Shown: positions 55,745 through 60,860 of the stretch, one piece after another | Position numbering within the stretch: position 1 is the stretch's first letter | How the letters are laid out: each line of letters begins with the position of its first letter | From: Armatimonadota bacterium | Lineage (GTDB): Bacteria > Armatimonadota > Fimbriimonadia > Fimbriimonadales > Fimbriimonadaceae | Assembly: GCA_018268395.1 (NCBI GenBank) | Contig: JAFDWQ010000003.1 | Coordinates: forward strand, 283,238-347,237 | Length of the DNA stretch: 64,000 bases | Reading direction: 5' to 3' | Program-made: the position numbers and the translations under genes | Notes under the pieces: model-generated | The model's input: only the letters and a program-made list of their open reading frames with translations | Database searches by the model: none | Told to the model about the DNA's origin: nothing

Positions 55745-56683
55745 CTACACCCGTACCGTTCCGACCGGCACGAGCGCCGAGCTCTGCCCTGTCGACGGGC
55801 GGACGAAGCGCACCGCACAGGCGTAACACCCTGAGGGCACCGCGACGGTCCCCGAGAGGGACCCGGAGGTGAAGGTGTGGAAACCCTTCGTCCGGAACAG
55901 CGCCGGCGTGCCCTTCGAATGGAGCGATCCGACCGGCTGAAGAAGCAGCTCCGTCGTGACATCGGCGCCGTTCGGCGCGTTGGTGGAGAAGACCACTCCC
56001 GCTCCCCCTCCCTCGTGGGGACCGGATGGTTCGTGCCGGACACATGAGGGAGGGGCTAGGGGAGGGAGATCCGGGCCCGCTTGGGGACCGGACGGTTCGT
56101 GCCGGACACAGGCTCCACCCCCAACCCCCTCCTCATGTTCGGGGCACGAACCATCCCCTGCACACGAGGAGGGGGCTCCGGACTCCTCCTCTCCTTCCTT
56201 GCCCAAGCCGTCACCTGCACACGGGGAGCGGGCTCCGGACTCCTCCCGCTCTCTCGTGCACGGATCCTCTGCGGCGACCGATGAGGGGGCCACCGTGACC
56301 ACGACCGCGTCGCCTGTAAAACCTTCGCCGGGCGGCAGGCGCGGGACGTCGCCGTCCGGGTCGACTTGGAGGAACTTGACTGCGAGCCCGGAGAAGACGG
56401 TGTGGGGCCGTCGGGCGGCGCCGCTTTCGGTCGGGCCGAGGGAACGGTCGAGCCCGCGGGCATAGGCGGACCAAGCCTCGGCTTCGGCCGGAGTGAGCTC
56501 CCGCCAAATGCGGGTGGCCCGAGACATCGCCTCGCGCACGGCCCTCTGGCCCGGGGTCTGCGGGTTCCGTGGCGTGATCCTTGGCCGTACGTAGACCGCG
56601 CCCGACGGCCCTCGCACCAAGACCACCGTGCCGGGTTTCCCCGTCAACCCGCCGAAGAGGACTCCTGTCGTCGCCCGCGCCAT
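55745..56683 (-). CDS. DUF6266-like protein with in-frame repeat insertion
   Basis: 312 residues from ATG 56683. The N-terminus MARATTGVLFGGLTGKPGTV, then RPRITPRNPQTPGQRAVREA and WRELTPAEAEAWSAYA, is paralogous to the gene at 60153-60860 (RPRVTPANPSTPAQQAVRTN, YKNLTPAQAAAWELYA). The G-K-x-G-x-V plus N-P-x-T-x-x-Q layout resembles DUF6266 proteins. Between VVVTVAPSSV (about 145) and VVFSTNAPNGADVTTELLLQ lies an extra segment of about 90 residues rich in Cys, Gly and Glu. It is encoded by imperfect DNA repeats (55998-56272) and is absent from the paralogue. Function unknown; it may be a phage-structural or surface-layer-like domain. Confidence 0.7.
   Translation of the reverse strand: MARATTGVLFGGLTGKPGTVVLVRGPSGAVYVRPRITPRNPQTPGQRAVREAMSRATRIWRELTPAEAEAWSAYARGLDRSLGPTESGAARRPHTVFSGLAVKFLQVDPDGDVPRLPPGEGFTGDAVVVTVAPSSVAAEDPCTREREESGARSPCAGDGLGKEGEEESGAPSSCAGDGSCPEHEEGVGGGACVRHEPSGPQAGPDLPPLAPPSCVRHEPSGPHEGGGAGVVFSTNAPNGADVTTELLLQPVGSLHSKGTPALFRTKGFHTFTSGSLSGTVAVPSGCYACAVRFVRPSTGQSSALVPVGTVRV
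55998..56272. repeat. block of imperfect repeats inserted in the DUF6266-like gene
   Basis: A 29-nt unit occurs at 56016-56044 and 56082-56110 with one mismatch, and part of it in inverse orientation near 56139-56156. A 34-nt unit occurs at 56157-56190 and 56214-56247 with three mismatches (core CTCCGGACTCCTC). The block keeps the host reading frame open. The paralogue at 60153 lacks it, so it is best read as a secondary insertion of repeat DNA. Confidence 0.7.
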
Positions 56684-56735
56684 CCTGACCTTGATCTTCG
56701 GCGCAGCAAGCCGCTTTCTGCAGTGGTGCGGCCTT

Positions 56736-56783
56736 CCTTCACGCATGCTTCACGCATGCGGATGCGTGAAGCATGCGTGAAGG
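56736..56783. repeat. perfect 22-bp inverted repeat (strong hairpin)
   Basis: Arms 56736-56757 and 56762-56783 are exact complements with a 4-nt loop (GCGG). Each arm contains the word TTCACGCATGC or its complement. It lies 53 nt upstream of the left paralogue start. There is no T-run, so a terminator is unlikely. Confidence 0.85.
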
Positions 56784-56905
56784 AGCGGTGAAAGACCGGG
56801 GAAAATGGCGTGTTTCGACGGACAGGGGGCAGGACGGGACGCTTCCGTAGGCCGGCCGCGGGAGCAGGGTTGTCTGGTAGCGTGCCTGGAGTCGGTGCGG
56901 ACGAA

Positions 56906-56967
56906 GCATCCAGACTAGGTTCGGCGGCGCGCGGTGTGAGGTGGTGTCCGGAGTCTGGAGGCAGCAA
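56906..56967 (-). repeat. 57-nt palindromic repeat, left inverted copy
   Basis: Read on the minus strand, TTGCTGCCTCCAGACTCC (18 nt, 56950-56967) is followed by 29 variable bases and ACCTAGTCTGGATGC. The ends of each unit are complementary (GCCTCCAGACT with AGTCTGGANGC). The same layout occurs in opposite orientation at 59384-59445. Confidence 0.8.
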
Positions 56968-57052
56968 TTCGTGAGAAGTCCGAACGCGAGGGGAGGTGGT
57001 GAGCCGAGTGTGGAGGAAACGAAATCTAGACCTCAAATTGCAGAATCTGTGA

Positions 57053-57058
57053 TACAGT
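57053..57058 (+). promoter_or_regulatory. -10-like hexamer for the cassette's first gene
   Basis: TACAGT, 6 nt before GTG 57065. Confidence 0.4.
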
Positions 57059-57064
57059 GAATAT

Positions 57065-57571
57065 GTGGCTTATACCTCGTACACGGTGCTAGGGGTTATA
57101 GGAGCTTTAGCTTCGTTGGGCGCACTGTATAAGCTTTCGTGCGATCTTTACACAGAGAGTCGACTGCGGGCGGCGGGGGGGGGCGACCTTCGCCGAGATC
57201 CACGGATTGGTTCACGCATCACATTGCCCGGCCACGACGTCGACAATCGAGGGATCGGGTTAGCACAAGGCAAAGTGCTCGTCGTCTATGCGGGAGCTTG
57301 CACCTCTTGCAGCCTAAATGCCGTTGATCCGACCGTGTTGCCCTTCAAAGCGTTCGATCAAATCGTTTTGGTGTTCTCCGCCACGCCACAGGAGGTTCCC
57401 AAAGCGCTGCGCTCAGTCAATGCCAAGCTGCGCCTGATCGCCGATCCGCACCTTGATCTTACAACTTCGCTCAACGCCCTCTGGGTCGGACGTTGGTATG
57501 AATACATCGACGGAACGCTTGTGCGCATGCAACGGAGCGCTGACGAGAAATGTATTGGACGTGCCTCGTGA
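57065..57571 (+). CDS. membrane-anchored CxxC thioredoxin-like protein
   Basis: 168 residues from GTG 57065. A hydrophobic N-terminal helix (YTVLGVIGALASLGALYKLS) would anchor it outside the cytosolic face. A thioredoxin-fold segment follows: GKVLVVYAGACTSCSLNAVD with CTSC at residues 79-82, then FDQIVLVFSATPQEVPKALR and LIADPHLDLTTSLNA. The layout resembles redoxins that shuffle disulfides of exported proteins. The downstream Cys-rich secreted peptide is a plausible substrate (inference). It overlaps the pseudopilin gene as GTGA. Base use is less GC-rich than the window. Confidence 0.75.
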   Translation: MAYTSYTVLGVIGALASLGALYKLSCDLYTESRLRAAGGGDLRRDPRIGSRITLPGHDVDNRGIGLAQGKVLVVYAGACTSCSLNAVDPTVLPFKAFDQIVLVFSATPQEVPKALRSVNAKLRLIADPHLDLTTSLNALWVGRWYEYIDGTLVRMQRSADEKCIGRAS

Positions 57572-58149
57572 CAACGATCAATGGCTCCAAGTTTAGGCAC
57601 GGCGTCACATTGTTGGAGGTAGTCACATGTTTGACGGTGCTCGTTCTACTCTTCACAGTCCTCATGCCGGTCTTCGCAAAGGCCAGGAGATCAGCGATCA
57701 TTTCAAAGAGCTCGGCACAAATGAGGCAGTTTCAGCAGGCACTCTATTTGTACCAGATCGACCACGACTTTCAGGGCGGGCCATCACAAATCGGATTGCC
57801 ACAGAGTTTAGCCATATTCAGGTTTACGCCCTACCGCTATCCATTGGACATGTTCAAGACGGGCGGTACGCCAAAGCCCGGCAGCAAATATGCAGTCTAT
57901 ATCCAGATGTTCCCCTCGGAGCATGACGCTGCCTCATCGAAAGGGAAGGGTGGTGAAAGTCCTTGGATGACGCACAATTCACGAACCGGCGGGAACCCGG
58001 TCCTCTTGGTCGACGACAGTCAAAACGTCGAAGATTCTTGTACTGATTGCTATTTTGAGAGCAGGTTCGGCCTGGGTATCTATGCGGACGGGCACGTACG
58101 AAGGCAATGGACAAAAGGGCTCTTGGCCCGGTACGAGGCATGGGAGTGA
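57568..58149 (+). CDS. pseudopilin-like protein
   Basis: 193 residues from GTG 57568, which overlaps the previous stop (GTGA). A class III leader MTTINGSKFRHG is followed by VTLLEVVTCLTVLVLLFTVL; Glu is at position +5 of the mature form, as prepilin peptidase substrates require. PVFAKARRSAIISKSSAQMRQ is the usual continuation. The C-terminal part (RFGLGIYADGHVRRQW) ends like H-X9-DG pseudopilins. Likely inserted in the membrane or in a secretion pseudopilus. Confidence 0.85.
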   Translation: MTTINGSKFRHGVTLLEVVTCLTVLVLLFTVLMPVFAKARRSAIISKSSAQMRQFQQALYLYQIDHDFQGGPSQIGLPQSLAIFRFTPYRYPLDMFKTGGTPKPGSKYAVYIQMFPSEHDAASSKGKGGESPWMTHNSRTGGNPVLLVDDSQNVEDSCTDCYFESRFGLGIYADGHVRRQWTKGLLARYEAWE

Positions 58150-58186
58150 GACCACCCGCGACAGATCGACCCAAAAGGTGAACACT

Positions 58187-58528
58187 ATGAAATACTTAAC
58201 AAAGATGACAAGCGTCCTAGCGGCGACATTAGCCATAGCAGCGAACTCAATAGCGCTCTGCAACTGGGGTAGCGGTAGTTTTGCACCGTCGACGCCTCCG
58301 AACAACTGCGTAGGATATAACTGTGCTCTTGGGTGCGACCTAACGGTGTGGGGCCCAACGGCTGACACGTGCTACCAGAGCATGGACGCTTGCTGCCAGT
58401 GCACGTATTATTATGGAACTTGCGTGAATTGGTCTTGGTGCGGAGGTGGGACAGGCGCACTGTCGGCTTCAAGACTGGAGTACTCGACCAGGCTCTGCAA
58501 CGGTGTGGTCGGACGGTGCTCTCCGTAG
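58187..58528 (+). CDS. secreted 12-cysteine peptide
   Basis: 113 residues from ATG 58187, with AAGGTG 8 nt upstream. A clear signal peptide (MKYLTKMTSVLAATLAIAAN) leaves a mature region of about 85 residues with 12 Cys (CVGYNCALGCD, CYQSMDACCQCTYYYGTC, SWCGGG, LCNGVVGRC), many Tyr/Trp/Gly and few charges. An even number of Cys and the adjacent CxxC protein suggest a disulfide-rich secreted product. Spacing does not match a toxin, bacteriocin or defensin family I can name. Possibly a surface or signalling peptide. Confidence 0.75.
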   Translation: MKYLTKMTSVLAATLAIAANSIALCNWGSGSFAPSTPPNNCVGYNCALGCDLTVWGPTADTCYQSMDACCQCTYYYGTCVNWSWCGGGTGALSASRLEYSTRLCNGVVGRCSP

Positions 58529-58555
58529 GTTTGGTCGCCGTATCGGAAAACGTCG

Positions 58556-59221
58556 TTGAAGACCACGGTCCGTTCTCTGATTGCAGACAAAAAGCGGCGG
58601 CAGGCACTTTGCGTCGTTGTGCTTTTGGTCACGTCCTCTCTCGTGCTTTGGGTCGTCGTGGCGAGAAGGCCAAGGCCTTTGACTTTGGACGCGAAAGCCG
58701 TCGTAGAAGCATTGCAGTCGGGGGACGGCAACCGCATATTGCCCTACGTCTGGGAAGAAGAGATCAAAGCGAACGGCTATACGGCCGCTAGCCTCACCGC
58801 GATCTGCCGAGAGGCCCTGAACCCTGTACTGACACGGAACACGGCGCGAGGCCTCGAACTTCAGGACGATGGCGGAAGCGCGGCCGCAGGACTTCAACTG
58901 TCTTCGCCAGAAGGCAGGCCAGGGGAATTAGCCGTAAGCGTGTTCAAGACGAGCAACGGGCCGCGCTTCAGCTTTATGAACACGCTTATGGCCGCCTGGG
59001 CCGTCGACCACAGATTGCGAAAGGGAGAACCAAGAAGCCTTGAAACCTTGGCCACCGGCCAGATCGAGGGTTGGGAGAAGTACGGCTCGACTTTGCAGGG
59101 TCTAGGATGCAAGGTCATTGCCCGCGAGCAAGCGAAGGAAGGGGTATTGGAGCTCGAGGGAATCGACGAGTATGTCCAACGATGGAGAGGTCTGTTGGCC
59201 GATTCCAAAAAGGGTGGCTAA
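58556..59221 (+). CDS. single-span membrane protein of the cassette
   Basis: 221 residues from TTG 58556, 27 nt after the Cys-rich gene. A membrane helix (ALCVVVLLVTSSLVLWVVVA) near residues 18-38 precedes a soluble domain with LDAKAVVEALQSGDGNRILP, WEEEIKANGYTAASLTAIC and a C-terminal coiled region. No family recognised. The start is uncertain since no strong Shine-Dalgarno was found. Confidence 0.65.
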   Translation: MKTTVRSLIADKKRRQALCVVVLLVTSSLVLWVVVARRPRPLTLDAKAVVEALQSGDGNRILPYVWEEEIKANGYTAASLTAICREALNPVLTRNTARGLELQDDGGSAAAGLQLSSPEGRPGELAVSVFKTSNGPRFSFMNTLMAAWAVDHRLRKGEPRSLETLATGQIEGWEKYGSTLQGLGCKVIAREQAKEGVLELEGIDEYVQRWRGLLADSKKGG

Positions 59222-59383
59222 GTCATGTCTCAATATCTCCGAACTCCGCCCTCGGCGGATCAGGATCTTCCGCCAGACTCCGATGTGGAGGGCCACGCTC
59301 CGTCGCGGCCGCTTCCGCACGTTTCCCGCAGAGTGTCAAAGATGCGAAGGATCGCAAAGCGCGACCGCCCTCCGATTGACCCT

Positions 59384-59445
59384 TTGCTGCCTCCAGACTC
59401 CAAAGTCCTCGCGGTGACGACAAGGATCCGACCTAGTCTGGAGGC
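59384..59445 (+). repeat. 57-nt palindromic repeat, right inverted copy
   Basis: TTGCTGCCTCCAGACTCC (59384-59401), 29 variable bases, then ACCTAGTCTGGAGGC. Same spacing as the left copy at 56906-56967, opposite orientation, with the TTGCT ends facing inward. Confidence 0.8.
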
Positions 59446-59540
59446 TTGTCGGCCTGCTCCCAAGGGTCTCCCTCTCCCCGCTTGACGGTTGGCCCGGTCT
59501 GGCAACGGTGTCCACGTTTCACTCCGCCGGACCGGCGGGT

Positions 59541-59683: not shown

Positions 59684-59812
59684 CCACCTGTCAAGAGGTC
59701 ACCCTTTGGTGGGGCCACCCGCCGCAAGGCCCTGGCTTCCCGTCCGGAAGACTATCCTTGGTCCTCAGCGGGCTCGGACGTCCTGGGACGCGACCCGTGG
59801 TGACGTCCTTGA

Positions 59813-59873
59813 CCCGGTCTGCAACGGGACAAGTGCGCTCGAAAGGCTCGTCACGGCGCGTTGCCAGACCGGG
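59813..59873. repeat. hairpin formed by inverted CCCGGTCTG(G)CAACG units
   Basis: 59813-59826 pairs with 59859-59873 with a single bulge; 32-nt loop. A further direct copy lies at 59493-59507. Confidence 0.6.
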
Positions 59874-60126
59874 CCACCCGTCAGAATCCTTTGTCGAGCG
59901 ACCGGGTTGATCGGGACGATCCCGGGTGCTTGCCCAAACCTTCGCGAACAGGTCTTACGACGGAAGGGGCAAGCGACGGGTGGCCACATTCGCCTGAGGG
60001 ACAAGAATCTTCATGCTTTTTCGCATTCGCCCTAACGAACCGCTTAAAGCGCTCCAAAACTCTATCTTGCGGGCCGAGGGAATACCGGTCCGCAAACCGT
60101 TCCCGAGGCCCGTAACGGATAACAAC

Positions 60127-60156
60127 ATGAAACGAGCCGAAGGAGGTGCGCCATAG
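60127..60156 (+). promoter_or_regulatory. nine-codon upstream frame overlapping an AUA start
   Basis: ATG 60127 encodes MKRAEGGAP and stops at TAG 60154-60156. That stop overlaps the inferred AUA start at 60153 (ATAG), the geometry of a termination-reinitiation leader. It contains the AGGAGG (60141-60146) that would serve the downstream gene. Confidence 0.35.
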
Positions 60157-60860
60157 CACGCGCCGAACTGTCCGTCGCCTTCCAGTCCTTACGAGGTAAG
60201 GCAGGCACTCTCGTCATCGTCAAAGGGCGCGACGGCTATTACATAAGGCCGCGCGTGACACCTGCGAACCCGAGTACTCCCGCGCAGCAAGCCGTCCGTA
60301 CGAACCTTCGCAAGGCCGCTGTCGCTTATAAGAACCTCACTCCTGCCCAAGCGGCGGCATGGGAGCTCTATGCGCAGACGCAGGTCGTGGAGAACCCTCC
60401 GACGGGGCGCAAACCGAAGAAGACCGCAGTCGACGCCTTTGTCGAGTTGGCCGCAAAGTTCTTGCAGGTCACTCCGACCGGAACGGTGCCGACCGCCCCG
60501 CCTGCGGCGTCCTATTACGGGGACAGCATCGCCGTGACGGTCGCTTATTCGGCCGGCAAGGCGACTTTCACCGGGTCGGCGCCGAATAGCCTGAACACGC
60601 GGACCGAGTTGCTCATGCAGCGCCTTCCGGCGCAGAACCGCCATGCGCAAAAGGGCGCTTACCGGAGCAAGGGCTTCGTACAGTTCGTGCCGGGGACGCT
60701 CAGCTTCGACGTGACGGTGCCGCCGGGATACTATGCCGCGGCGTACCGTTTCGTCAACGTCGCGACGGGGCAGGCGACCGACCTGCAACCGATCAACGCC
60801 GGTCAAGTCACGCTCGCGCTGGAAGCGGGTGGGAGCGGGACGAAGAAGAAGGCGGCGTAG
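60153..60860 (+). CDS. DUF6266-like protein, apparent AUA start
   Basis: 235 residues if started at ATA 60153. AGGAGG at 60141-60146 sits 6 nt before it. The next codons (ARAELSVAFQSLRGKAGTLV) align with the paralogue's MARATTGVLFGGLTGKPGTV so that AUA matches its Met. No ATG, GTG or TTG occurs in frame between the stop at 60120 and GTG 60255, which would cut off the conserved G-K-A-G-T-L-V core. The body has YYIRPRVTPANPSTPAQQAV, an Ala-rich helix, AVDAFVELAAKFLQVTPTG and a beta-rich C-terminal domain ending in Lys-rich KKKAA. Unlike the left paralogue it has no repeat insertion. Confidence 0.7.
   Translation: MARAELSVAFQSLRGKAGTLVIVKGRDGYYIRPRVTPANPSTPAQQAVRTNLRKAAVAYKNLTPAQAAAWELYAQTQVVENPPTGRKPKKTAVDAFVELAAKFLQVTPTGTVPTAPPAASYYGDSIAVTVAYSAGKATFTGSAPNSLNTRTELLMQRLPAQNRHAQKGAYRSKGFVQFVPGTLSFDVTVPPGYYAAAYRFVNVATGQATDLQPINAGQVTLALEAGGSGTKKKAA

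Follow-up and report, generated by a model that had tools for sequence, protein, structure and literature searches.

The four genes and their predicted products

The window, by which we mean the whole 64,000-nucleotide stretch of DNA analysed here, carries four co-oriented open reading frames on the forward strand (57065-57571, 57568/57550-58149, 58187-58528 and 58556-59221), which lie between two facing repeats at 56906-56967 and 59384-59445. The reading frames and their motifs bear out the initial annotation, which had described four co-oriented genes encoding a CTSC protein, a protein with a prepilin motif, a secreted peptide with 12 Cys and a membrane protein. We refer to their products as P1 to P4.

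Judged by its homologues and by profile searches, the first gene (57065-57571, forward strand) is predicted to encode P1, a membrane-anchored thioredoxin-like protein of 168 aa with a C-T-S-C motif (C79 and C82), and these two Cys are the only residues that are invariant among 19 homologues. Pfam Redoxin was matched in 8 of the 19 members, and the P1 profile finds CcmG (E 8e-4) and DsbE (E 3e-3) in the PDB, suggesting that P1 is DsbE/CcmG-like. A CxxC motif on a membrane-anchored thioredoxin fold, the fold being judged by sequence only, agrees with a DsbE/TlpA-like protein. However, the cis-Pro expected of such proteins is lacking, and the window protein has a Gly at the likely place (LWVGRW, versus W-x-P-R in most members); the same Gly is seen at three other loci (L103, L104 and L114), and Pro in most other P1 proteins. 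For this reason we term P1 DsbE-like rather than a DsbE, and the redox role or the catalytic properties of the window P1 may therefore be altered.

The second gene ends at 58149 on the same strand and starts either at a GTG at 57568, giving a 4-nt GTGA overlap with P1, or at an ATG at 57550. Its motif, profile matches and PDB matches point to a pseudopilin, P2. A Gly/hydrophobic prepilin cleavage motif (RHG/VTLLE), a Glu at +5 that is invariant in 20 homologues and a hydrophobic helix are the features expected of pilins and pseudopilins. The NCBIfam GspG profile matches all 20 members, below its equivalog cut-off, GFxxxE is found in 19 of them, and searches against the PDB return pilins (best E 5e-13), which argues for a GspG-like pseudopilin. 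The Verru_Chthon cassette (TIGR02596, TIGR02599) is likewise a gene set with pilin-like proteins, and P2 has the common N-terminal pilin region. In contrast, the partner genes here are different, and the matches to TIGR02596 and TIGR02599 are weak and occur in only 9 of 20 and 3 of 20 P2 members, respectively. Cassette proteins A to D are not found together; the matches cover no more than the pilin region of proteins C and D, and are weak there too. The genome has four secretin matches and 12 T2SSF matches, indicating that type IV filament machines are present, and no filament gene is linked to the four-gene module.

Homologues and place in the operon identify the third product, P3 (58187-58528, forward strand), as a probable Sec-exported Cys-rich peptide of 113 aa with 12 Cys, the mature part of which would begin near C-N-W. 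Eighteen homologues were aligned, all at the same operon place, with a signal peptide followed in most by C-x-W and with 8-15 Cys including a CCxC; a second P3 type (WC..C..., 6-12 Cys) occupies the same place in other modules. Searches of P3 against Pfam, NCBIfam and PDB sequences gave no match, the fold search was also empty, and the AlphaFold2 model is beta-rich with a mean pLDDT of 80. We infer disulfides in P3 from the Cys count alone. The high Cys content might instead mean periplasmic metal handling, with P3 binding metal through its cysteines and P1 keeping it reduced, and TlpA/DsbE-like proteins are usually reductants. However, the cysteines of P3 are spread along the chain rather than grouped into repeated CxxC clusters for metal, the protein has little His, and a pseudopilin would be an unexpected partner; we regard metal handling as very improbable. 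The beta-rich model, together with the position of P3 beside the pseudopilin wherever the neighbourhood is complete, would also suit a pilus-tip or surface adhesin, in which P2 and P3 make up a cap displayed on a type IV filament and P3 stays on the cell. Such an adhesin seems quite unlikely to us, as P3 has an ordinary Sec signal and neither a prepilin motif nor an anchor, and binding between P2 and P3 is hypothetical.

The fourth gene (58556-59221, forward strand, TTG start) is predicted from its homologues and from a structural model to encode P4, a protein of 221 aa with one N-terminal transmembrane helix and an extracytoplasmic alpha/beta domain. Twenty-two homologues were found, and none of the Pfam and NCBIfam families searched was matched. 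The AlphaFold2 model of P4, with a mean pLDDT of 94.7, shows a long N-terminal helix and an alpha/beta domain, and its best fold neighbours in the PDB are NTF2-like but weak (E 1.4e-3, TM 0.56 by target length and 0.32 by query length).

Conservation of the four-gene module in Fimbriimonadales

Protein searches across 101 genomes place matches to P1, P3 and P4 side by side in genome after genome. When the neighbourhoods were read, complete modules were found at 18 curated loci in 15 genomes, which belong to two families (f1 and f5) of the order Fimbriimonadales. The gene order is P1-P2-P3-P4 at 17 of the 18 loci, the remaining one (genome G010) being P2-P3-P4-P1, and P1 and P2 overlap at 17 of 18, by exactly 4 nt at 10 of them if P2 of the window, which is counted here, starts at GTG 57568. 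A second set of loci, chosen by P4 or P3 matches only, contributes about 10 more complete modules, as well as several P2-P3-P4 sets, P2-P4 pairs and lone P4 genes. This brings the complete modules to about 28 places in about 20 genomes of Fimbriimonadales. The genes next to the module vary between loci, which means that it occupies many different sites. The searches detected P3 in this order only (21 of 291 genomes), and P4 is detected phylum-wide by profile, with strong matches only in the order; a profile scan of genome contigs with the P2 alignment found no relative. The main groups are the same in the P2 and P4 trees, indicating that the genes travel together. In the close pair L111/L112, dN/dS is about 0.17, 0.09, 0.11 and 0.18 for the four genes, which shows purifying selection on all of them, P3 included. 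P1-P2-P3-P4 is thus a conserved operon and a true unit, and the co-occurrence of the four genes in a fixed order across Fimbriimonadales upholds the earlier proposal that they belong together.

The surroundings of the G010 module hold further genes: upstream of it, L103:7894-9594 (reverse strand) encodes a secreted protein of 566 aa with a C39-like GGNMYCVPTSFANVL stretch, and downstream of it lie a second secreted peptide with 10 Cys and then two further pseudopilins.

A point against the export reading given below is that P4 is not tied to P3 everywhere, because P2-P4 pairs without P3 (L192 and L117) and P4 alone (L115, L185 and L191) also occur. Tandem P4 genes are seen next to a pseudopilin or a module, four at L184 of genome G012 and two at L121 of G050, and single genomes may hold several different modules, as in G043 with nine P4 matches. 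In the pair L111/L112, P4 is the fastest-evolving of the four genes. The lone and tandem P4 genes, the several modules per genome and the fast evolution of P4 could be explained if the module were a secreted peptide weapon, which is the main rival to the interpretation given below: P3 would be an antibacterial peptide stabilised by disulfides, P1 its folding enzyme, P2 an export adaptor and P4 a membrane-anchored immunity protein, and immunity genes often stand alone or in tandem. Sublancin, a known bacteriocin, is linked with dedicated thiol-disulfide oxidoreductases, BdbB being that of sublancin, and the feature in common would be a secreted peptide with disulfides whose gene is accompanied by that of a dedicated redox protein. 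However, sublancin is a glycocin with an ABC transporter, whereas the module encodes a Sec peptide with a pseudopilin and has no glycosyltransferase. The selection on P3 is purifying rather than diversifying, with P3 evolving no faster than P1 in the close pair, P2-P4 at L192 does without the supposed toxin, and an NTF2-like fold is much too unspecific to imply immunity. We consider a weapon unlikely, and favour the reading of the module as an operon for the production and export of a disulfide-rich peptide.

Origin of the facing repeats and of the low GC content

The inner ends of the two repeats that face the module are identical over 18 nt, with GGAGTCTGGAGGCAGCAA at 56950-56967 and the complement of this sequence at 59384-59401. 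At the outer ends, 14 of 15 positions agree. This is in agreement with the exact inner and near-exact outer ends reported in the initial annotation. A 14-mer from the end, AGTCTGGAGGCAGC, occurs exactly twice within the window. With up to one mismatch it occurs 34 times in the genome, versus once for a reversed control, and the repeat match is therefore far beyond chance. The 29 bases between the ends, earlier taken to be variable, are not random, and the window copies represent two subtypes, A on the left (23 genomic copies) and B on the right (11 copies).

In an alignment of all repeat copies, conservation extends to one side only and stops at GCTGCC/GGCAGC. Complete copies are about 250 bp long, each with one A-type and one B-type end (n=5). 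The same two ends enclose an intact RAYT gene elsewhere in the genome, in an element of about 709 bp (C1:1286-1994). Its transposase gene (L044:1385-1945) passes the NCBIfam model NF047646 with 80.8 bits against a cut-off of 80 and also matches Pfam Y1_Tnp, and inverted palindromes lie around it, B-type at 1289-1351 and A-type at 1933-1994 of L044. The 250-bp copies are deletion derivatives of this element, matching it at each end but missing the central part. By inspection, a CGTC that may correspond to the known GTAG/CGTC tag adjoins both palindromes (TTCGTCCG and CCGTCCGTC). It has been reported that a RAYT gene is always flanked by two inverted REPs and is accompanied by non-autonomous derivatives (PMC2817692, PMC3116915). 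The repeat family described here has three marks of RAYT/REP elements, namely a REP-associated tyrosine transposase, flanking inverted palindromes and dispersed, species-specific short copies. Like the known RAYT/REP/REPIN systems (PMC2817692, PMC3116915), it places an IS200-like tyrosine transposase gene between inverted palindromes, has short non-autonomous derivatives and is species-specific; it differs in that the palindromes are longer (about 60 nt) and the copies fewer (about 34) than usual. Among 40 relatives the repeat was not found, save for one 23-nt partial match in G007.

Within the window, the left repeat belongs to a truncated RAYT element at 56844-56967 (forward strand), comprising the right, A-type end and the last part of the RAYT gene, with 87% identity to 1871-1994 of L044, where the element at C1:1286-1994 ends. 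The right repeat belongs to a second truncated element at 59384-59484 (reverse strand), a left, B-type end that matches the B ends at C8, C12, C5 and C1 and is joined at 59484 to another, different dispersed palindromic repeat. The facing repeats are thus what is left of RAYT transposon ends and do not belong to the four-gene module. An integron-like attC reading of the repeats was dropped because the A and B ends flank a RAYT gene, and a composite transposon was rejected, the RAYT elements lying outside the cassette, in the same orientation and truncated.

Several other features were observed around the RAYT ends. Other dispersed palindromic repeats (CCCGGTCTGGCAACGGTGTCCAC...), present in many copies, adjoin the RAYT ends in the window at 59484-59535 and 59722-59885, and a nested palindrome, TTCACGCATGCTTCACGCATGCGGATGCGTGAAGCATGCGTGAA, lies to the left of the left repeat at 56738-56783. 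A family of proteins of 235-333 aa (RGKxGTxVxxKG...RPRVTPANPxTPAQQAVR...) is encoded on both sides of the cassette, at 55745-56746 (reverse strand) and 60153-60860 (forward strand), and also at two other RAYT-repeat loci (L044:2426-3133 and L052:6013-6903); only repeat loci were examined for it, and the link may be a bias. The members scanned gave no Pfam or NCBIfam match. Small secreted proteins directly adjoin RAYT ends at L046:7983-8624, L054:8294-8890 and L056:7276-7950, those of L046 and L054 being 36% identical, and two of the three begin with MSAVLAAA....

The initial annotation had regarded the module as an acquired unit bounded by inverted repeats, that is, as a mobile cassette whose ends are the two facing repeats. 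Two well-conserved ends do face the cassette exactly, the segment between them is low in GC, as are segments between such repeats elsewhere, and searches of congeners did not find the module lineage of the window. However, these ends are parts of RAYT elements situated outside the cassette, and the genome-wide search for the repeat end, which had been suggested as a check, returned its 34 ends from many loci unrelated to the module. Pairs of these repeats bracket quite different genes at such loci, including an S1C-like protease, an RHS-like fragment and small secreted proteins (named by eye). Conversely, the repeat is present at none of 40 module loci fetched from other genomes and from a second site in the same genome. 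The mobile cassette is thus largely refuted and in our judgement hardly credible.

The GC content of 56968-59383 is 0.560 versus an average of 0.633, the lowest in the window and within the lowest 3% of the 2.4-kb stretches sampled, confirming that the four genes are less GC-rich than their surroundings. However, a GC content below that of the surroundings is seen in 16 of 20 modules, among them the second copy in this genome. Low GC was therefore rejected as proof of transfer; it is a habit of the module and does not prove a recent arrival. The segments between two RAYT ends at L053, L054 and L048 mostly have a GC of 0.56-0.57 versus 0.633, whatever they encode, and RAYT elements therefore seem to end up in variable chromosomal regions that are richer in AT.

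Of the claim that the module was acquired, what stands is the position of the window copy in the P2 and P4 trees, in which many deep nodes are weak: it groups with copies from other genera (g8, g16, g4 and g19), whereas the second copy of this genome (L122) groups with that of the congener G001 (L105). With the window P3 as query, P3 was not found in three congeners. The glycine C-acetyltransferase-like gene to the right of the module is present in all three but has different neighbours there, so that no clean empty site can be read. Lateral gain of the window module and loss in the congeners are both possible. More generally, a frame of inverted repeats can mislead, since the repeats in this case are transposon debris and the real evidence is the gene order in other genomes.

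A proposed pathway for peptide export

Taking the conservation, gene order, coupling, motifs, predicted folds and purifying selection described above as a starting point, we infer the steps by which the module may work. P3 would cross the inner membrane by Sec, and P1, as a membrane-anchored DsbE/TlpA-like protein, would help to pair its 8-15 cysteines. P2, once processed by prepilin peptidase, would serve as a dedicated adaptor to the type IV pilus or type II secretion machine of the cell, and through P2 this machine would carry P3 across the outer membrane for release or show it on a filament. P4, an inner-membrane anchor with its domain outside, may hold or escort P3 or P2. The initial annotation had suggested that the genes make, oxidise or display a disulfide-rich peptide. 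Its gene unit proves to be conserved and its reading is kept as the best one; that the operon makes and exports such a peptide has, in our estimate, an even chance of being right.

The redox step follows the dedicated oxidoreductases of disulfide-containing bacteriocins, and the adaptor step follows the precedent of TcpB and TcpF, in which the minor pilin TcpB mediates secretion of the soluble protein TcpF (PMC9565799). There, as here, a pilin and a soluble secreted protein are encoded in one operon, and the pilin takes the cargo out. In contrast to TcpB-TcpF (PMC9565799), the cargo of the present module would be a small peptide rich in Cys, the operon additionally encodes a redox protein and a membrane protein, and filament genes are not linked to it.

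Pilin-dependent export and peptide-specific oxidoreductases are already known as kinds, and no account of this gene set was found in a search of the open-access literature. We tentatively suggest, with somewhat less than even confidence, that the modules represent a new export system for disulfide-rich peptides, in which each peptide is accompanied by a pseudopilin, a redox folding protein and a membrane factor of its own and uses a type IV filament machine of the cell, several modules with different peptides working in parallel in one genome. P3 and P4, two families that have no Pfam or NCBIfam entry, now have a place in a conserved operon that exists in multiple copies and also encodes a pseudopilin and a redox protein. 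The order concerned, Fimbriimonadales, is known mostly from metagenomes. If the proposal is true, it would give a first testable role to some of the many pseudopilins of Fimbriimonadales, and these modules would be a natural source of disulfide-rich bacterial peptides.
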